Shown: positions 1,117-22,953 of the stretch, one piece after another | Layout: every line of letters starts with the position of its first letter | Position numbering within the stretch: position 1 is the first letter of the stretch | Assembly (NCBI RefSeq): GCF_021991835.1 | Contig: NZ_JAHDAU010000003.1 | Coordinates: 186,001 to 250,000 of the forward strand | Direction: 5' to 3' | Length of the DNA: 64,000 nt | Source of the DNA: Polaribacter sargassicola | Lineage (GTDB): Bacteria > Bacteroidota > Bacteroidia > Flavobacteriales > Flavobacteriaceae | Notes under the pieces: model-generated | What the model was told of the DNA's origin: nothing | Database searches by the model: none | The model's input: the letters and a program-made list of their open reading frames with translations, nothing else | Translations under genes and position numbers: made by a program

Positions 1117-1203
1117 CAGAAAGGAAGGGATTCGAACCCTCGATACCGTTACCAGTATACTACCTTTCCAGGGTAGCTCTTTCGACCACTCAGACACCTT
1201 TCT
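1117..1203 (-). tRNA. tRNA-Ser (anticodon GGA)
   Basis: An 87-nt class II tRNA. The acceptor stem is AGAAAGG/CCTTTCT with discriminator G, the D arm is short, and the anticodon stem CTACC/GGTAG encloses loop CTGGAAA, giving anticodon GGA. A long variable arm with an ATAC/GTAT stem is typical of serine tRNAs, and the T arm holds TTCGAAT. CCA is not encoded. The 5' end overlaps the rimM stop codon by two bases. I see no promoter between rimM and the tRNA, so it is probably cut out of the rpsP-rimM transcript. Confidence 0.95.
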
Positions 1204-1726
1204 AAATATACAAGGCAATTAAACCTTCTGGTGCCTCTACTTTTATTATTTTATTTTCTCTGTCTACCTTTTTTATAAAGTCATCAACCATAGGAATAAA
1301 GATTTCTGTACCATCTCTATCTATTTCAAAAAGTGGTTGTGCTGCTTTATCATTTATATAAACGATTTTACCAACTTCGCCAAAATTAACATCTACAACT
1401 GTAAAGCCAATTACTTCGTGATAATAAAATTTATCACCTGTAAGTTTAGGCAACATTGTATTTGGTAAATAGATTTCGCATTTTAGAATTGATTCTGCTT
1501 CTTCTTCTGAATATACATCTTCAAACTGAACACGTAGTTGATTTCCTTTGTGTAGTGAGCTTTTTTCAATAAAAAATGGAACCAAGTTTGTGCCAAATTC
1601 GACATAAACTGATTCCATTTCTGTGTACAACTCAGGTTCATCTGTATCTAATTTGATAACAACTTCACCTTTAAAACTATATTTTGTTACGATTTTGCCT
1701 AAATAAAAACAATCTTCTTTACGCAT
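1202..1726 (-). CDS. rimM: Ribosome maturation factor RimM
   Basis: A 174-residue protein that helps assemble the 30S head around ribosomal protein S19 in the cytoplasm. The N-terminal RimM beta-barrel (about 1-90) begins with FYLGKIVTKYSFKGEVVIKL. The C-terminal PRC-barrel (about 95-174) contains EVIGFTVVD, GEVGKIVYI and the conserved ending PEGLI. Length is normal for the family. It lies 19 bp downstream of rpsP, the usual rpsP-rimM pairing, so the two are almost certainly cotranscribed. The TAG stop (1202-1204) shares its last two bases with the first two of tRNA-Ser, so RNase P maturation of that tRNA would cut inside the stop codon. Confidence 0.96.
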   Translation of the reverse strand: MRKEDCFYLGKIVTKYSFKGEVVIKLDTDEPELYTEMESVYVEFGTNLVPFFIEKSSLHKGNQLRVQFEDVYSEEEAESILKCEIYLPNTMLPKLTGDKFYYHEVIGFTVVDVNFGEVGKIVYINDKAAQPLFEIDRDGTEIFIPMVDDFIKKVDRENKIIKVEAPEGLIALYI

Positions 1727-1745: not shown

Positions 1746-2249
1746 TTATTCTGCTGTATTTTCTTCTGTTGTTGCTTCTTCAGCAACCTCTTCTTCTACA
1801 ACTGGTTTAGCTGCTTCAATTCTAGCTTCATTAACAGCTTTTTCTGCTGCAAATGCTTTTGCTTTAGCATCAGCTTGCGCTGCGCTTAAACCTTCTTCTT
1901 TTGCAGAAATTTTTGCTGCTTTTTCTTCTAACCAAGCTGCAAATTTAGCATCTGCCTGCTCTTGAGTTAAAGCTCCTTTTCTAATACCACCAACTAAATG
2001 GTTTTTTAACATTGCACCTTTGTAAGATAAAATGTTTTTTGCAGTATCAGTAGGTTGTGCACCATTTTGTAACCATTCTACAGCTTTATCAATATTTAAA
2101 TCAATAGCAGCAGGGTTAACGTTAGGATTGTAAGTCCCAATTTTTTCTAAGTATTTACCATCTCTTTTTGCACGAGCATCAGCGGCAACGATCCAATAGA
2201 ATGGTTTCCCTTTTTTACCGTGTCTTTGTAATCTAATCTTTACAGACAT
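1746..2249 (-). CDS. rpsP: 30S ribosomal protein bS16
   Basis: A 167-residue bS16, a primary component of the 30S body. The conserved S16 fold fills about residues 1-82, with SVKIRLQRHGKKGKPFYWIV at the start and the YLEKIGTYNP segment. The remaining 80 or so residues form a low-complexity tail rich in Ala and Glu. Such tails are common in Bacteroidota S16 and are absent from the short proteobacterial form. First gene of an rpsP-rimM-tRNA unit. Its 5' leader holds two hairpins with identical loops, a possible site of autoregulation. Confidence 0.97.
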   Translation of the reverse strand: MSVKIRLQRHGKKGKPFYWIVAADARAKRDGKYLEKIGTYNPNVNPAAIDLNIDKAVEWLQNGAQPTDTAKNILSYKGAMLKNHLVGGIRKGALTQEQADAKFAAWLEEKAAKISAKEEGLSAAQADAKAKAFAAEKAVNEARIEAAKPVVEEEVAEEATTEENTAE

Positions 2250-2265
2250 AATTTGTTAATTTTTT

Positions 2266-2312
2266 AAGGTTCTCGACCTTGATTATTAATAGTCTTACTA
2301 TCTCGTAGTAAG
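2266..2312 (-). promoter_or_regulatory. Twin-hairpin leader of rpsP
   Basis: Read on the minus strand, the 5' leader contains a 7-bp hairpin CTTACTA-CGAGA-TAGTAAG (2312-2294), a 13-nt linker, and a 5-bp hairpin AAGGT-CGAGA-ACCTT (2280-2266), then 16 nt to the rpsP start. Both stems are perfect and both loops have the same five bases. This pattern suggests an RNA regulatory element, plausibly a ribosomal-protein leader bound by S16. That function is an inference. Confidence 0.6.
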
Positions 2313-2318
2313 TGGGCG

Positions 2319-2326
2319 CAAAATTA
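2319..2326 (-). promoter_or_regulatory. Putative -7 element of the rpsP promoter
   Basis: TAATTTTG on the minus strand matches TAnnTTTG. It sits just upstream of the twin hairpins, so transcription would start about 2315 and include both. The -33 region is AT-rich without a clear TTG. Confidence 0.5.
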
Positions 2327-2579: not shown

Positions 2580-3026
2580 ATGAAGTACACAGAAAAAATT
2601 TCGAATAAGTTAAACGAACTATTAGAAAAAAATTACGATGCAGAAAAAGGATATTTAAATTCTGCTGATAATGTAGATAGTCCTAAATTAAAAATATTCT
2701 TTAAAAATAGAGCATCAGAAAGAAGTCAATTTGCAAAAGAAATTAGAACAGAAATTTTATCTTATGGTCAAATACCAGAAGATGATGGTTCTTTTAAAGG
2801 TACAATGCACAGAAATTGGATGTCTTTAAAATCTTTATTTAGCTCTAACGATGAAGAAGCAATTTTAGAAGAAGCAATTAGAGGAGAAAAAGCAAGTTAT
2901 AATGAATATAAAGAAATTTTACAAGAAGATGCTCTTGCTCCATCAACAAGAAAAATGCTAGAATTTCAAATGCAAAAAATTCAATCTGCAATTAATATTT
3001 TAATGGTAGAAGAAGAATTATCATAA
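2580..3026 (+). CDS. DUF2383/PA2169-type four-helix-bundle protein
   Basis: A 148-residue, almost wholly helical cytoplasmic protein. It resembles the PA2169/DUF2383 family, ferritin-like four-helix bundles often linked to stress or stationary phase; the biochemical role is unknown. Typical segments are NELLEKNYDAEKGYLNSAD at the N terminus, FFKNRASERSQFAKEI, and EEAILEEAIRGEKASYNEYK, followed by a closing helix. There is no signal peptide or membrane segment. It is flanked by its own candidate -7 element and a strong terminator, so it is probably a single-gene unit. The ATG has no Shine-Dalgarno sequence, which is normal here. Confidence 0.85.
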   Translation: MKYTEKISNKLNELLEKNYDAEKGYLNSADNVDSPKLKIFFKNRASERSQFAKEIRTEILSYGQIPEDDGSFKGTMHRNWMSLKSLFSSNDEEAILEEAIRGEKASYNEYKEILQEDALAPSTRKMLEFQMQKIQSAINILMVEEELS

Positions 3027-3180: not shown

Positions 3181-6100
3181 ATGTACTTAATTTTTGATAC
3201 AGAAACTACCGGTTTACCCAAAAGCTGGAATGCACCCATCACAGACACAGACAATTGGCCTAGATGTATACAAATTGCATGGCAATTGCATGATGCAATG
3301 GGAAATGTATTAGAACATAACGATTTTTTAATTCAACCAGAAGGTTTTAACATTCCTTATGATGCAGAAAGAATTCACGGAATTTCTACAGAATTAGCAC
3401 AAGAACAAGGTATAAAATTAGACAAAGGGTTAGCACTTTTTAATGAAGCTCTAAAAAAAACCAAGTTTATTGTTGGGCAAAATGTTGGTTTCGACATCAA
3501 TATTATGGGGTGCGAATTCCATAGATTAGGTGTAGAAAACAATTTAACTTCATTACCACTATTAGATACTTGTACAGAAAAAACAGCTACAATGTGTCAA
3601 ATTCCTGGTGGTCGTGGTGGTAAATTTAAATTACCAACCTTAACAGAATTACACAATCATTTATTTGGTGTTGGTTTTGGTGAAGCACACAACGCAACTG
3701 CCGATGTTGAAGCTACAACTCGTTGTTTTTTAGAGCTAATTCGTTTAAGAGAATTTACAAAAGAAGAATTAGATGTTGATGAAGATTATTTTAAAAACTT
3801 CTCTGAAGCAAACCCAAAACCAATTCAAGTAATTGGTTTAAAACACATCAACCTAAAACAAGAAAGCGATAAAATTCGCAAACGTTTAGAGAAATTAAAA
3901 GATACTGTAGAAACCAAATCTACATCAGAAGGTTTAGCAGAATTAAAAGACGTACAATTTTCACATTTACACAATCACACACAATATTCTGTTTTACAAA
4001 GTACCATTCAACTTGGTAATATTGTAAAAGCTGCTGCAAAGTATAATATGCCAGCAGTTGCTATGACAGATACAGCCAACATGATGGGAGCTTTTCATTT
4101 TGTAAATGCTGTTTTAAGTCATAATAAAAATGCAGAAACACCAATAAAACCAATTATTGGTTGTGAGTTTAATATTTGTGAAGACCACAAAAACAAGTCA
4201 CAAAAAGACAATGGTTATCAAGTTGTTTTATTGGCTAAAAATAAAAATGGTTATCATAATCTAGCAAAATTATCTTCTGCTGCATTTGTAGACGGTTTTT
4301 ACTATGTACCAAGAATAGACAAAATACTTGTAGAAAAATACAAAGAAGACATTATTGTATTAACCGGTAACTTATACGGAGAAGTACCAAGTAAAATTTT
4401 AAATCTAGGAGAAAAACAAGCCGAAGAAGCTTTAATTTGGTGGAAAGAGCAATTTAAAGACGATTTATATATCGAGTTGATGCGTCATAATCAACAAGAT
4501 GAAAACATTGTAAATGAAACTTTATTAAAATTCTCTAAAAAACATAATGTAAAAGTTGTTGCTACCAACAATACTTTCTATCTAGATAAAAAAGATGCCA
4601 ACGCACATGATATTTTATTATGTGTAAAAGATGGCGAAAAACAATCTACACCAATTGGTAAAGGCCGTGGTTATAGATATGGTTTACCTAACCAAGAGTA
4701 TTATTTTAAGTCTTCGGATGAAATGAAGGCGCTCTTTGCAGATTTACCAGAAGCCATAATTAACATACAAGAAATTGTAGATAAAGTAGAAATTTTTACG
4801 CTAGCAAGAGACGTTTTATTGCCTGCTTTTAATATTCCTGATGAGTTTAAAGACGAAAAAGACAATGAAGATGGCGGAAAAAGAGGTGAAAATAATTTTC
4901 TAAAACACCTAACTTATGAAGGGGCAAAAAAACGTTATGGAGAAATTACAGAATCTATAAAAGAACGTTTAGATTTTGAGTTAGAAGTAATTGAAAAAAC
5001 AGGATATCCTGGTTACTTTTTAATTGTAGAAGATTTTATTAGAGAAGCCAGAAATATGGATGTTGCTGTTGGTCCCGGTCGTGGTTCTGCAGCAGGTTCT
5101 GTAGTTGCTTACTGCCTTTGGATTACAAATATAGACCCTATTAAATACGATTTACTTTTTGAGCGTTTCTTAAATCCAGAACGTGTATCGATGCCCGATA
5201 TTGATATTGATTTTGATGATGAAGGTCGTGGACGTGTAATGGATTATGTAATTGATAAATATGGCGCAAACCAAGTAGCACAAATTATTACTTACGGTAC
5301 AATGGCTGCTAAATCTTCTATTAGAGATACTGCCAGAGTATTAGATTTACCACTTTTTGAAGCCGATAGAATTGCCAAATTAATTCCAGGAATTAAACTA
5401 AAAAATATTTTTGGTGATGATCCTAAAAGCAAAGGTAAAGTTGATGGTTTACGTGCAGAAGAAAAACAACTTGTAGAAGAATTAAAAAACATTTCTTATG
5501 GTTCTGATTTAGCTTCAGAAACTGTAAATAAAGCAACTATATTAGAGGGTTCTGTTAGAAATACCGGTATACATGCCTGTGGTGTAATTATAACTCCTGG
5601 TGATATAACAAATTATGTTCCTGTTTCTCTTGCTAAGGATTCTGACATGTATGTTACACAGTTTGATAACTCTGTAGTAGAAACTGCTGGGTTATTAAAA
5701 ATGGATTTCTTAGGATTAAAAACACTAACTTTAATTAAAGATACCGTTAAAATTGTAAAAGCAAGACATGGCATTACTTTAGATCCAGAAAATTTTTCTT
5801 TAGATGATGTAAAAACTTACGAATTATTCCAAAGAGGAGAAACTGTTGGTGTTTTTCAATATGAATCTCCAGGAATGCAAAAACACATGCGCTCTTTAAA
5901 ACCAACTGTTTTTGCCGATTTAATTGCAATGAACGCATTATATCGTCCTGGACCAATGGAATATATTCCGTCTTTTATCAACAGAAAACACGGTACAGAA
6001 GATATTGAGTACGATTTACCTGCCATGGAAGAATATTTGGCAGAAACCTACGGTATTACAGTTTACCAAGAGCAAGTAATGCTTTTATCGCAAAAATTAG

Positions 6101-7518
6101 CCGATTTTACCAAAGGTGAAGCCGATGTTTTACGTAAAGCAATGGGTAAAAAGCAAATTGCGGTTCTTGATAAAATGAAACCAAAATTTATTGAACAAGC
6201 TAGTAAAAACGGACATGATGAAGAAAAACTAGAAAAAATCTGGAAAGACTGGGAAGCTTTTGCAAGTTATGCCTTTAATAAATCTCACTCTACTTGTTAT
6301 GCTTGGATTGCCTATCAAACTGCCTATTTAAAAGCACATTACCCAGCAGAATATATGGCTTCTGTACTTTCTAATAATATGAATGATATTAAATCTGTAT
6401 CATTTTTTATGGAAGAATGTAAACGAATGGGATTACAAGTATTGGGACCAGATTTAAATGAATCTTTCTTAAAATTTTCTGTAAACAAAGAAGGTGCTGT
6501 TCGTTTTGGTATGGCAGCTGTAAAAGGTGTTGGCGCTGCAGCTGTAAGAGCAATTATTAAAGAAAGAGAAGAAAACGGACACTATAAATCTATTTTTGAT
6601 TTAGCAAAACGTGTAGATTTAAGAGCTGCCAACAAAAAATCTTTTGATAGTTTAATTAAAGCTGGTGCTTTTGATTCTTTTACAGATACACATAGAGCAC
6701 AATATTTTGAAACCGATGAAAAAGGGCAAACCTTTTTAGAACGTGCTATGAAATTTGGTAGTAAATATCAAGAAAACGAAAACTCAGCACAAGTTTCTAT
6801 GTTTGGTGAAGCTTCTACTGTTCAATTTCCAGAACCAGACATTCCTAAATGTGAAACTTGGGGAACTATGGAGCTTTTATCTCAAGAAAAAGAAGTAATT
6901 GGTATTTATATTTCTGCACATCCTTTAGATGATTTTAAAAACGAAATGATTTTTTGTAACGCGGCTTTAAAACATTTTAAAGGAGATTTATCTAAATATG
7001 TAGGTATGAATTTAACTTTTGCTGGTATTGTTACAGATGTGCAACATCGTGTATCTAAAGCCGGTAAAGGTTGGGCAATGTTTACTATGGAAGATTATGG
7101 AGATAGCAATGAATTTAGAATTTTTGGTGAAGATTATTTAAGAATGAAACATTTTTTGGTTCCTAATTCTTTCTTGTTTGTAAGAGCTACAATTCAACCT
7201 GGTTGGACAAACAAAGAAGGTGTAACAGGCGAACCTCGCTTAAAATTTACCGACTTTAAATTGTTGCATGATATTATGGATGAACTTTGTAAGAAAATAA
7301 CCATTAAAATTCCTTTACAAGAAATTACAACAGAAACCATTTCTAATTTAGAATCTATTCTAAAAAAGAGTCCTGGTAAACAAAATTTACATTTTACTGT
7401 TTGGGATGCTAAAGAAAAAATAGAAGTAAATTTACCAAGCAGAAATACAAAAGTTAATGTTTCTAACGAACTGTTAACTACCTTAAAAAGAGAACAAGTA
7501 GATTTTAAAATAAATTAA
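3181..7518 (+). CDS. dnaE: DNA polymerase III alpha subunit with fused N-terminal 3'-5' exonuclease
   Basis: The 1445-residue replicative polymerase. Residues 1-190 are a DnaQ-type DEDDh proofreading exonuclease: DTETTG at 6-11, NVGFDINIM as motif II, and HNATADVEAT as motif III. The PHP domain starts near 260 with HLHNHTQYS. The C-family polymerase core follows, with GPGRGSAAGS at about 631-640 and the catalytic PDIDIDF at about 672-678. Next come YQEQVM and GEADVLRKAMGKK, helix-hairpin-helix segments, and an OB fold near 1275-1320. E. coli DnaE has about 1160 residues and uses a separate DnaQ; the exonuclease fusion explains the extra length and is usual in Bacteroidota. Some PHP metal ligands are replaced (TDTAN near 296-300, NNTFYL near 463-468), so proofreading probably rests on the fused domain. 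Confidence 0.97.
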   Translation: MYLIFDTETTGLPKSWNAPITDTDNWPRCIQIAWQLHDAMGNVLEHNDFLIQPEGFNIPYDAERIHGISTELAQEQGIKLDKGLALFNEALKKTKFIVGQNVGFDINIMGCEFHRLGVENNLTSLPLLDTCTEKTATMCQIPGGRGGKFKLPTLTELHNHLFGVGFGEAHNATADVEATTRCFLELIRLREFTKEELDVDEDYFKNFSEANPKPIQVIGLKHINLKQESDKIRKRLEKLKDTVETKSTSEGLAELKDVQFSHLHNHTQYSVLQSTIQLGNIVKAAAKYNMPAVAMTDTANMMGAFHFVNAVLSHNKNAETPIKPIIGCEFNICEDHKNKSQKDNGYQVVLLAKNKNGYHNLAKLSSAAFVDGFYYVPRIDKILVEKYKEDIIVLTGNLYGEVPSKILNLGEKQAEEALIWWKEQFKDDLYIELMRHNQQDENIVNETLLKFSKKHNVKVVATNNTFYLDKKDANAHDILLCVKDGEKQSTPIGKGRGYRYGLPNQEYYFKSSDEMKALFADLPEAIINIQEIVDKVEIFTLARDVLLPAFNIPDEFKDEKDNEDGGKRGENNFLKHLTYEGAKKRYGEITESIKERLDFELEVIEKTGYPGYFLIVEDFIREARNMDVAVGPGRGSAAGSVVAYCLWITNIDPIKYDLLFERFLNPERVSMPDIDIDFDDEGRGRVMDYVIDKYGANQVAQIITYGTMAAKSSIRDTARVLDLPLFEADRIAKLIPGIKLKNIFGDDPKSKGKVDGLRAEEKQLVEELKNISYGSDLASETVNKATILEGSVRNTGIHACGVIITPGDITNYVPVSLAKDSDMYVTQFDNSVVETAGLLKMDFLGLKTLTLIKDTVKIVKARHGITLDPENFSLDDVKTYELFQRGETVGVFQYESPGMQKHMRSLKPTVFADLIAMNALYRPGPMEYIPSFINRKHGTEDIEYDLPAMEEYLAETYGITVYQEQVMLLSQKLADFTKGEADVLRKAMGKKQIAVLDKMKPKFIEQASKNGHDEEKLEKIWKDWEAFASYAFNKSHSTCYAWIAYQTAYLKAHYPAEYMASVLSNNMNDIKSVSFFMEECKRMGLQVLGPDLNESFLKFSVNKEGAVRFGMAAVKGVGAAAVRAIIKEREENGHYKSIFDLAKRVDLRAANKKSFDSLIKAGAFDSFTDTHRAQYFETDEKGQTFLERAMKFGSKYQENENSAQVSMFGEASTVQFPEPDIPKCETWGTMELLSQEKEVIGIYISAHPLDDFKNEMIFCNAALKHFKGDLSKYVGMNLTFAGIVTDVQHRVSKAGKGWAMFTMEDYGDSNEFRIFGEDYLRMKHFLVPNSFLFVRATIQPGWTNKEGVTGEPRLKFTDFKLLHDIMDELCKKITIKIPLQEITTETISNLESILKKSPGKQNLHFTVWDAKEKIEVNLPSRNTKVNVSNELLTTLKREQVDFKIN

Positions 7519-11151: not shown

Positions 11152-11212
11152 ATATGATTTATATTGATAACGAAACGATGCGGAAATTAGTTTTTAAAAT
11201 TAATTTTTTTAC

Positions 11213-11242
11213 AAAAAAAATGGCTCTAAAAAGAGCCATTTT
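11213..11242 (-). terminator. Terminator of the GLPGLI/barrel operon
   Basis: AAAATGGCTCT (11217-11227) and AGAGCCATTTT (11232-11242) form an 11-bp perfect stem with a 4-nt loop. On the minus strand a run of eight T follows, 23 bp after the barrel gene stop. Confidence 0.88.
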
Positions 11243-20310: not shown

Positions 20311-22953
20311 TTAATTTATTATCAATTTATTAGTATCATAATCTCTGTAATCATTAGATATTTTAATAAAATACAGTCCAGATTTTAATCCTTCTCTCTT
20401 TAATTGAATCTTATTATTACCTATTTCTGTATTAACTTCAAATTTTCTAATTCTTGCTCCTGTTAAAGAATACACTTCTATTTCTGTAGTAGTATTAATT
20501 TCTGAATAAAAACTAATTTCTGATGTAGAACTCATCGGGTTTGGATATATCATTGTTTTATTCTCTTCAATTATTTCATCATTTACACTTAAAACACTCT
20601 GAGTAAACAATATATCTCTTAAATTTAATTCTCTAGAAACTACCTCTACTCCATCCGAAGACATTGTAAACACCATACTTACTGCATCAGTTAAATCAAT
20701 ATCATCAGCAATAGCAGATGCAAAATGATCTAAAGGAACCGCATAATGAGTTTCATTCTCATTTAATGTAATTGTAGTTCTAAACTGATTTTCCCATGCA
20801 TCAATACTTTCTTTTACAATTGTAATTTCTACATCTCCTATTCCGTTAGCATCAAACTCTAAAATATCGAATTCAGATAAATCAACCGCTGTAAATCTTG
20901 GAGTAAAAGACCTAAAAGCAGAAACATATTCGCTTGTTGTTGCTTTTAGAGCTATATTTCTTTCTACTCTATAACCACTTCCTGTATAAATTTCATCATT
21001 CTGAGTAATAGAGAAATCTGTAACTGTTGTTCCTTCTGGAGAATCATCTTTACCCCAAACACCATCAGACATAAATAAATCATCTGGAGTTAAATTGTAC
21101 TCATTTTCTATTCTAAAACCGATATCAAAAATATTACCTGTTTCAATCACTAGATTTTCTATGTAACTACCTGTTAATTGTATAGTTTCGTTAAAGTATT
21201 CTGTTTCTGAAGTTTCAGTTCTTTTAAACCCTGCATCAATTACAGCACTAGTACCTCTTCTTACATTTATTAACTCTAATTCTAAAGCTCCGTTTTTGTA
21301 CTCTCCTCTTTTTACAAATAATGGTGGAGGAGTAGAAGTTGCATACTCTGTAATAGGTTTTTGAATATCGAATAATGTTAGAGCTTCTTGACCTAAAGCT
21401 AACAAATCATCTATACTACTAGCCCAAATTTGAAAGTTATAATAAGTAGCTCCTTCTTGATATTTATCAATATTCCAATGACTATCAATTACAAAGTTTT
21501 CTTCATCATCAGTTAATCTACCAGAAAAACTTAATACAAATTCTTTAGATCCGTTGCTATTTTCTATTATAGATTTAATAAAATGAACCCCTTCTTCTTC
21601 TCCTTCTCCTTCTTCAGAATCTTCTTGAAATAGCTCTATTGTAGAAACAGATAATAATTTTGCACCTAATAATCTATCGCAAATAAACTTAGTATGTTCA
21701 TAAACACCGTTTTCTGTTTTTGTTGCTAATACTACAGCTACAGTTTCTGAACCTTTTAAATAATCAACAGAATATAACTCTGTAGCATTAGTTATGTTTA
21801 ATAAATCTAATGGTGATGATTCTACCGTTTCTGTTTCTGAGATTACACCTAAAGGAATTAAATCTTTTAATTCAAAACTTGTAGTTTTAGCAGATGTTTT
21901 CTTATAATTTTCTGACTTAATAACTTTTTTTGCTGAAAATTTATCAAACTTATAGTTTTCTTTAATTCTTAAATAATTTCTTTGATTGATTTTTTGTGAA
22001 AGTCTATCGTTACTTTCTAAACCTCCATCGCTTCCACTAGAAACCTCTGGCGTAATAACAGGACAAGATGCAACACCAGAACAAGCAGGATCATCACAAT
22101 CTGTTAAACCATCACCATCATCATCTAAACCATTTGAGCAGTCTTCTTGCGGCACAGGAGCAGAAGGACATCTTGCACCATCGTTAGAGCTACTAGAAGG
22201 ACCAAAAGCAAAAAGATTAGAATCCATTGTACTGCCTGCTGTTAAATCTTGTACATTTTGAATTACATAAACGGTTCCTGTTTCATTTGCTGATACATAA
22301 AAACGTCCAGAAGCATCAAAATAAACAGCTCCGTATGTATATCTAAAACCAGATAAAATTGGTACTTCTCCTAAATCTGTAATTACACTCGTTTCAGAGT
22401 CTATTCTATATAACTTATTTGTACTCTTTTCTACAGTATATAAATGTCCGTCTACAGCATTAAAAGCCCAATCATGAATATTAATACTTTTAGACAACTC
22501 ATTAGTACTTAAAACTTCTGTATATGTATCTGAACTTGGGTCTAAATCTATTTTATAAAATGTACTTGAAGATCCTGCTTTTGCATAATAGATTCCATCA
22601 ACACTTACATCTCCTACATATCTATTTTTTGTAGATAATTCATTAATTGTAATAACTTCTACTTGAAAGTCTTTACCTATTCTAACAATATTTTTACTAG
22701 ACTGTAAAGAACCCCAAATATAACCATCAACAGAATTGTAACCTGCTGCGTTTATATTGGTTGATGTAATATTTTCGGCCACTAAATACGAGCTTCCTGA
22801 AGCTAAATCTAATGCATAAACATCATTTCTTTGAAATAAATATGCATTATAATCACAATTAAAAGGCTCGCTTTGCGCATAAATCGATAAACTTAAAATT
22901 ATACATAAAACTGAGAATAATTTTGTTTTGAGGGGATGTAATTTTGTTATCAT
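20311..22953 (-). CDS. T9SS-secreted multidomain protein with beta-propeller-like N terminus
   Basis: An 880-residue cargo protein of the type IX secretion system. A signal peptide (about 1-26, ending SIYAQ) leads into a DUF6923-like propeller region (about 30-260) with repeated Gly-Tyr/Trp blade segments such as INIHDWAFNAVDGHLY. Then comes a Cys/Asp-rich calcium-binding-like loop, NGLDDDGDGLTDCDDPAC (about 275-292). The middle (about 300-780) is not recognised. The C-terminal 75 or so residues are a T9SS type A sorting domain: YPNPMSSTSEISFY, IEVYSLTGARIRKF and LKSGLYFIKI. It should be carried across the outer membrane and attached or released after removal of the sorting domain. Its ligand is unknown. 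A TATCTTTG -7 element sits 18 bp upstream. Confidence 0.88.
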   Translation of the reverse strand: MITKLHPLKTKLFSVLCIILSLSIYAQSEPFNCDYNAYLFQRNDVYALDLASGSSYLVAENITSTNINAAGYNSVDGYIWGSLQSSKNIVRIGKDFQVEVITINELSTKNRYVGDVSVDGIYYAKAGSSSTFYKIDLDPSSDTYTEVLSTNELSKSINIHDWAFNAVDGHLYTVEKSTNKLYRIDSETSVITDLGEVPILSGFRYTYGAVYFDASGRFYVSANETGTVYVIQNVQDLTAGSTMDSNLFAFGPSSSSNDGARCPSAPVPQEDCSNGLDDDGDGLTDCDDPACSGVASCPVITPEVSSGSDGGLESNDRLSQKINQRNYLRIKENYKFDKFSAKKVIKSENYKKTSAKTTSFELKDLIPLGVISETETVESSPLDLLNITNATELYSVDYLKGSETVAVVLATKTENGVYEHTKFICDRLLGAKLLSVSTIELFQEDSEEGEGEEEGVHFIKSIIENSNGSKEFVLSFSGRLTDDEENFVIDSHWNIDKYQEGATYYNFQIWASSIDDLLALGQEALTLFDIQKPITEYATSTPPPLFVKRGEYKNGALELELINVRRGTSAVIDAGFKRTETSETEYFNETIQLTGSYIENLVIETGNIFDIGFRIENEYNLTPDDLFMSDGVWGKDDSPEGTTVTDFSITQNDEIYTGSGYRVERNIALKATTSEYVSAFRSFTPRFTAVDLSEFDILEFDANGIGDVEITIVKESIDAWENQFRTTITLNENETHYAVPLDHFASAIADDIDLTDAVSMVFTMSSDGVEVVSRELNLRDILFTQSVLSVNDEIIEENKTMIYPNPMSSTSEISFYSEINTTTEIEVYSLTGARIRKFEVNTEIGNNKIQLKREGLKSGLYFIKISNDYRDYDTNKLIIN

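Follow-up and report, generated by a model that had tools for sequence, protein, structure and literature searches.

Two hairpins with one loop in the rpsP leader of Polaribacter sargassicola and their likeness to the tip of 16S rRNA helix 17

The rpsP-rimM locus and its leader

The window, a stretch of 64 kb of Polaribacter sargassicola DNA, carries on its minus strand rpsP and rimM, presumably one operon, preceded by a leader in which two hairpins, here hp1 and hp2, present the same loop (Table 1). Read on that strand, with loops in square brackets, the leader is CGCCCA-CTTACTA[CGAGA]TAGTAAG-ACTATTAATAATC-AAGGT[CGAGA]ACCTT-AAAAAATTAACAAATT-ATG. The two perfect stems with identical CGAGA loops that the first-pass annotation had placed at 2266-2312 lie exactly there, and its spacing of 13 nt between the hairpins and 16 nt from the end of hp2 to the rpsP ATG is likewise correct. 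The transcription start map of Flavobacterium psychrophilum, as presented in PMC9723704, has the promoter box at -12 to -5; this spacing predicts a rpsP transcription start at 2314, which would make roughly the third nucleotide of the mRNA the first base of hp1.

Table 1. Features of the rpsP leader and operon in the window
Feature	Position	Strand	Basis
rimM, 16S maturation factor, next gene of the presumed operon	1202..1726	-	PF01782, PF24986
rpsP, ribosomal protein S16, 167 aa, long C-terminal extension	1746..2249	-	PF00886 over residues 9-67; ATG at 2249
Rfam RF03138, S16-Flavobacteria ribosomal protein leader (outer A/U stem and hp2)	2255..2290	-	cmscan, 50.2 bits; gathering score 35.7
3' arm of the outer stem, -11 to -6 before the ATG, pairing with 2290-2285	2255..2260	-	RF03138 match, pair probabilities
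hp2, AAGGT-CGAGA-ACCTT, inside RF03138	2266..2280	-	sequence, pair probabilities, RF03138 match
hp1, 5'-terminal hairpin with a CGAGA loop on a stem of 7 bp (CTTACTA/TAGTAAG); the second copy, not covered by RF03138	2294..2312	-	sequence, pair probabilities, genus leaders
-7 promoter box TAATTTTG, TAnnTTTG type (predicted only)	2319..2326	-	sequence

Elsewhere in the window, a DUF2383 protein is encoded divergently from rpsP (2580-3026, plus strand), and a DnaE-type polymerase III alpha subunit of 1445 aa is encoded at 3181-7518 (plus strand); it has an RNase_T exonuclease domain at its N terminus, followed by PHP and polymerase domains. A match to Rfam Histone3 (RF00032) at 11197-11242 (minus strand; 34.8 bits against a cut-off of 34) is probably a chance match, and its stretch contains a terminator-like hairpin, GGCTCT...AGAGCC, between A and T runs.

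Pair probabilities were 0.89-0.99 for hp1 and 0.82-0.99 for hp2 and reached at most 0.44 for the outer stem, which is therefore weak alone; one of its six pairs in the window is non-standard. The minimum energy of the leader (-8.7 kcal/mol, z -1.65) was equalled by 13 of 200 shuffles, so that fold energy by itself is unremarkable and weak evidence. What is remarkable in this leader, unlike its fold energy, is the repeated loop. When the 72-nt leader was shuffled 20,000 times with its dinucleotides preserved, no shuffle contained two CGNG[ACT] hairpins with a stem of at least 5 bp and three contained at least one, and on both strands of the 64 kb window hp1 and hp2 are the only such hairpins, with one further example on a 4-bp stem at 22862-22874. 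A hairpin census took in the window and 74 of the 80 named loci of relatives (those longer than 4 kb): CGNG loops cap 1 of the 412 hairpins that the window has besides those of the leader, and 12 of 1946 in the named loci with their leaders masked. The idea that the loops pair with one another or with their surroundings was not borne out, the two loops being identical and TCTCG being absent from the predicted transcript.

The comparison with Rfam that the first-pass annotation had called for identified hp2 together with the outer stem as RF03138, above the gathering score, whilst hp1 gave no RF03138 match even at an E value of 10. The match lies directly upstream of rpsP with rimM next (from ORFs and Pfam), which is the location proper to this family, and RF03138 is present in 278 of 397 Flavobacteriaceae genomes. 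The paper on the S16-Flavobacteria leader is reportedly by Eckert & Weinberg. RF03138 is described as an S16 leader with rpsP and rimM as the regulated genes in Table 1 of PMC7247131, which gives S16 no asterisk for similarity to an rRNA site, and in its treatment of this leader S16 is predicted as ligand from the position of the downstream gene only (PMC7247131). The main text of that paper contains none of the terms 'two hairpins', 'tandem', 'h17' or 'helix 17' (PMC7247131), and full-text literature searches found no later work on S16-Flavobacteria or rpsP ribosomal protein leaders. The window's leader and the catalogued one have in common hp2, its CGAGA loop and the place before rpsP-rimM, and probably also the outer stem; the catalogued model of 35 positions has one hairpin whereas the window's leader has two. 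Within the literature searched, hp2 was thus already known, and hp1, the likeness to 16S rRNA helix 17 (h17) and the recurrence in other orders set out below appear to be new.

Conservation of hp1 and hp2 in Flavobacteriales

The hp2 loop was of the CGNG form, with or without an extra base, in 215 of 228 distinct Flavobacteriales leaders (209 by script and six by eye: L118, L123, L127, L134, L275 and L277), UUCG+1 in seven and something else in six, and GNRA was absent from the loops of all 228. The third loop base is mostly A (163 of the 236 CGNG+1 loops closest to the start codon, duplicates included). Leaders of family f4, perhaps Weeksellaceae, have the opposite closing pair, as in GGGA[CGAGT]TCCC, and outside f4 the loop is in a few cases cut down to the tetraloop A[CGNG]U. 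At the gathering score RF03138 did not match L257, L258 or L272, leaders that represent three further families of Flavobacteriales. Loops of a CAGNG type, perhaps a third loop type, were seen by eye in further Flavobacteriales families (L274, L270 and L276, with ACTA[CAGAGT]TAGT, GGGT[CAGCGT]ACCC and AACCA[CAGAG]TTGGTT respectively).

hp1 is narrower in distribution. The genus sample comprised 58 genomes searched. S16 was matched in 56 of them, and the leader could be read in 54 (G400 and G434, whose S16 match falls short of the start, were left out). Of these 54 leaders 49 carry hp1, its loop being of the form CGNG[AT], and the five exceptions (L140, L321, L327, L332 and L333) have another 5' hairpin or none. 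In three of these five, L140, L327 and L332, hp2 is GGTA[CGTG]TACC, with a tetraloop of the type seen in h17, and the loss of hp1 and the change in hp2 may be linked. Beyond the genus sample, hp1 was found in 16 of the 80 named relatives, in Polaribacter, part of Tenacibaculum and their kin, and overall in 66 of 253 leaders, the window's own included. This list had held 68 leaders, from which L081 and L186 were dropped as spurious script matches with weak A/T-rich stems far upstream; removal of 10 exact duplicates left 56 distinct leaders, and L194, with a shorter stem, is not in alignment A1, leaving 55 aligned.

Across these 55 leaders 98.7% of the cells of the hp1 helix are paired, against a background of changing sequence: one pair is CG in 27, UA in 13, UG in 11, GC in 3 and AU in 1, and the adjoining pair is CG in 23, UA in 22 and UG in 10, whilst the C, G and G of the loop are invariant. 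For the outer stem 78.2% of the cells in alignment A1 are paired, with alignment gaps nearby. Over the whole structure two-sided changes occur in 46 cells, compared with 8.8 in shuffles and at most 4 in slid controls; pairs with a two-sided change number three, a figure that 334 of 500 shuffles also attain and that does not exceed chance. In the 66 loci the hp1 loop is CGAGA in 60, CGTGA in two and CGAGT in four, all fitting the consensus of the hp2 loop, and the two loops stand 24-28 nt apart, so that each leader holds two copies of one element. The expectation that stems would covary around conserved loops among Flavobacteriia was thus upheld for the stems and loops themselves and for the wide occurrence of hp2, but not for hp1, which with CGAGA was found in few lineages.

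The CGAGA loop also stands at the same 5' place on different stems in at least two more genera, on CACTT/AAGTG in G119 and G314 and on CTACTT/AAGTAG in G253. The latter two genomes came from 20 matches outside the genus to a two-hairpin covariance model, R1, that were read among the matches listed, chosen mostly by length, and G119 (the source of L194) was already known to have a CGAGA 5' loop before that search. R1 matched 183 of 397 family genomes, a tally that was not used for hp1 because many of its matches are leaders with hp2 only. One congener, G025, has TTGAGA in place of the hp1 CGAGA loop.

These distributions bear on whether hp1 is a functional copy at all. If hp2 were a genuine S16 leader and hp1 merely a 5'-end hairpin against mRNA decay, its CGAGA kept by descent or good folding, one would expect what is seen in many genera read, including Tenacibaculum agarivorans and relatives, namely 5' hairpins with unrelated loops before rpsP; the few lineages with a CGAGA-bearing hp1 and the fact that most Flavobacteriaceae leaders read have hp2 alone would also fit. 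Since so many other leaders have unrelated 5' loops, the 5' stem is the common part and the CGAGA loop the special one, and a stable stem alone predicts that the loop drifts, whereas here the stem drifts and CGAGA stays, on three different stems and in a lineage where CGNG is a rare cap elsewhere (12 of 1946 hairpins in the 74 named loci). We therefore regard a purely protective hp1 as unlikely, a view to which the leaders of other orders also contribute.

Leaders of other orders and the tip of helix 17

Among 85 genomes of other Bacteroidia orders, 83 gave an S16 match and so an rpsP leader. CGNG hairpins with at least four pairs, G-U allowed, occur in 9 of these 83 leaders, from five families, whereas 200 shuffles gave 1.4 on average and never more than 4; when G-U pairs are disallowed the count is 7 against 0.4 in shuffles (maximum 3), and the antisense strand of the same leaders holds such hairpins in 3. 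The remaining 74 leaders outside Flavobacteriales have no CGNG hairpin, although CGNG caps 23 of the 26 h17 tips that were read in those orders. Three leaders of family f24 have compensated stems near the start codon, GGTTA[CGTG]TAACC, GGTTA[CGCG]TAACC and GGCTA[CGTGT]TAGCC. In two other families the hairpin comes directly after the promoter box, like hp1, with GCTATTA[CGAGA]TAATAGC and GCTATTA[CGAGA]TAGTAGC in f41 and CCCCTT[CGAGC]AAGGGG and a variant of it in f21; these leaders (G643/G611 and G629/G591) showed no further hairpin of CGNG or UUCG type before rpsP. A CGAG hairpin at the 5' place for which no such partner was found argues further against hp1 being a mere stabiliser. UUCG hairpins are present in 6 of the 83 leaders (shuffle mean 1.0, maximum 4; antisense 2), of which at most four are regarded as real, and UUCG+1 hairpins stand at the hp2 place in G636, G601 and G588, leader-like by eye. 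RF03138 matched none of 13 such loci in other orders (seven tested at the gathering score and ten at an E value of 1, four of them in both). The 5' hairpin of L437 and L444 (f41), GCTATTA[CGAGA]TAATAGC, is nearly the same as hp1 of L179, CTTATTA[CGAGA]TAATAAG; the S16 of the L437/L444 genome and that of the window share only 55% identity, and convergence, descent and transfer are all candidates.

The same loop design caps h17 of 16S rRNA. In each of the first 30 Flavobacteriaceae 16S genes viewed, its tip (roughly E. coli 455-477) presents a CGNG loop on a stem that varies with compensation. The loop is CGNG or CGNG+1 in 82 of 84 readable Flavobacteriales genomes, and the two exceptions, G531 and G463, have UGUA; among the 26 other Bacteroidia genomes read 23 conform, and the remainder are UUCG, UUCGU and UUCU. 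For this count L292 and L382 (unreadable h17) and L391 and L396 (repeat genomes) were left out, and L203, L377 and L384 were read by eye. No GNRA loop occurs among the 110 tips. The closing pairs of hp1 (A-U) and hp2 (U-A) are both seen in h17 tips; h17 of G063, CTCCCT[CGAGA]AGGGAG, has a loop identical to that of the leader, and exact leader-type pentaloops, CGAGA and CGCGT, are found in h17 (L168, L142). Conversely, h17-type tetraloops serve as hp2, not only in the GGTA[CGTG]TACC of L140, L327 and L332 but also as GGGTA[CGCG]TACCC in L238, and the alternative leader loop UUCG+N is also found at the h17 tip (UUCGU in L393, UUCG in L387). Judged by sequence, leaders and h17 tips draw largely from one loop set, CGNG, CGNG+1 and UUCG+1.

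The two do not change in step genome by genome, and we therefore speak of likeness of a site and not of strict co-variation. The third loop base is mostly U in h17 as opposed to mostly A in leaders, the leaders of G531 and G463 keep CGAG beside their UGUA h17 tips, and the UUCG leaders L399 and L417 occur in genomes with CGUG h17 tips. The window's own genome gave no 16S match, and the genus members G131 and G320 have CGUG h17 tips. By eye, the likeness between the internal loops of the leader and of h17 was unconvincing. Other 16S stems with CGNG loops, near E. coli 112 and 1302, were set aside as not being local hairpins, which we take to be their status in the accepted 16S structure.

Such a likeness could also arise if CGNG(H) were no more than a stable, Z-turn-like cap that this lineage favours, on which leader and h17 had converged for stability and with no common ligand. 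CGAG, CGCG and UUCG do fit the YNMG loop class, and a leader and an h17 tip need not have the same binder. Stability in general, however, would be expected to bring in GNRA, a very common stable tetraloop that is absent from the 110 h17 tips and the 228 leaders; CGNG caps fewer than 1% of other hairpins, and CGUG and CGGG, common here, are not YNMG. We consider convergence on stability alone improbable.

A further reading keeps the hairpins as binding sites but gives them to another ligand, be it another protein, such as RimM or a regulator that binds RNA, or else a small RNA carrying UCUCG. rimM is, after all, the next gene after rpsP, the published assignment to S16 derives from gene position, and exposed five-base loops can be targets of small RNAs. 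The variation of the loop at its third and fifth bases (CGNGH) and the substitution of UUCG for it fit recognition of a fold and not base pairing, and the matching rRNA site sits in a helix that S16 contacts, so that a ligand other than S16 seems to us very improbable.

S16 as the putative ligand of a two-site leader

S16 is 167 aa long in the window and 188 aa in 7JIL, which we take to be F. johnsoniae and whose bS16 sequence recurs in six other entries, and since it is long here its reach to the tip of h17 in Bacteroidia is plausible. In the solved ribosomes described in PMC5591316, PMC10046523 and PMC10085706, S16 contacts h15 and h17. According to the accounts given there, it lies on the central part of h17 in E. 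coli, where the h17 tip (A465-C470) touches h10 (PMC10046523), and in Cutibacterium acnes, where h17 is shorter and bS16 extended, the protein holds a flipped base of that helix (PMC10085706). S16 is described as recognising tertiary features of h15/h17 and as a late binder that departs from rRNA within seconds without S20 (PMC5591316), and tight binding to a lone hairpin is for that reason no given. Among ribosomal protein operons the E. coli trmD operon is characterised as a rare case (PMC10931766), and in F. johnsoniae mRNA structure and A-12/A-13 are reported to tune initiation (PMC6847099).

Taking these lines together, we favour, at a probability of about 0.55, the reading that the rpsP-rimM leader contains two hairpins that imitate the tip of h17, and that S16 would repress translation by binding them. 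Once S16 outnumbers 16S rRNA, it would bind the CGNG-loop hairpin hp2 and hold the weak A/U outer stem closed; the closed stem would cover -11 to -6 and enclose the A-rich -12/-13, and initiation would thereby be blocked. When rRNA is plentiful S16 would go to h17, and rpsP-rimM would be translated. hp1 would be a second S16 site at the 5' end of the mRNA, raising affinity or occupancy through avidity or through a second S16 per mRNA. The proposal of the first-pass annotation that one recognition element is present twice and serves autoregulation by S16 is therefore the best-supported reading, given covarying stems, kept loops and one copy that is a catalogued S16 leader; it fails if taken to mean both hairpins in many Flavobacteriia, and S16 is its putative ligand.

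More broadly, and more tentatively, somewhat short of even odds, S16 across Bacteroidia may recognise a CGNG(H)/UUCG-type hairpin that caps h17, and rpsP mRNAs may repeatedly have acquired copies of it in two scaffolds. The first, beside the start codon, would comprise RF03138 and relatives of it, as yet undescribed, from further families and orders; the second would lie where the mRNA begins. Polaribacter, some of Tenacibaculum and a small number of other genera would combine the two in a double-mimicry leader. If true, this would explain why one h17-tip loop design is kept in nearly all Bacteroidia read despite a freely varying stem. One loop on two mRNA stems and one rRNA stem predicts the bases that S16 would read, which makes the question of the ligand directly testable, and leaders with one site and with two form a natural series for measuring what a second site adds. 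The sequences thus suggest that S16 may switch off its own production via look-alikes of its site in the ribosome.

A leader of this kind would have a counterpart in the E. coli L20 leader, in which Guillier et al. in 2005 reportedly found two rRNA-like L20 sites in one mRNA. Both would hold two sites for one ribosomal protein, each like its rRNA site, those for S16 being putative; L20, however, is a large-subunit protein, and its leader mimics 23S rRNA with a structure unrelated to the S16 hairpins. The S15 leaders, as PMC7247131 presents them, resemble the S16 leaders in that differing scaffolds present one small rRNA-like feature to one protein, but S15 leaders imitate conserved nucleotides of a three-stem junction or stacked G-C/G-U pairs whereas the S16 leader would imitate a loop (PMC7247131).
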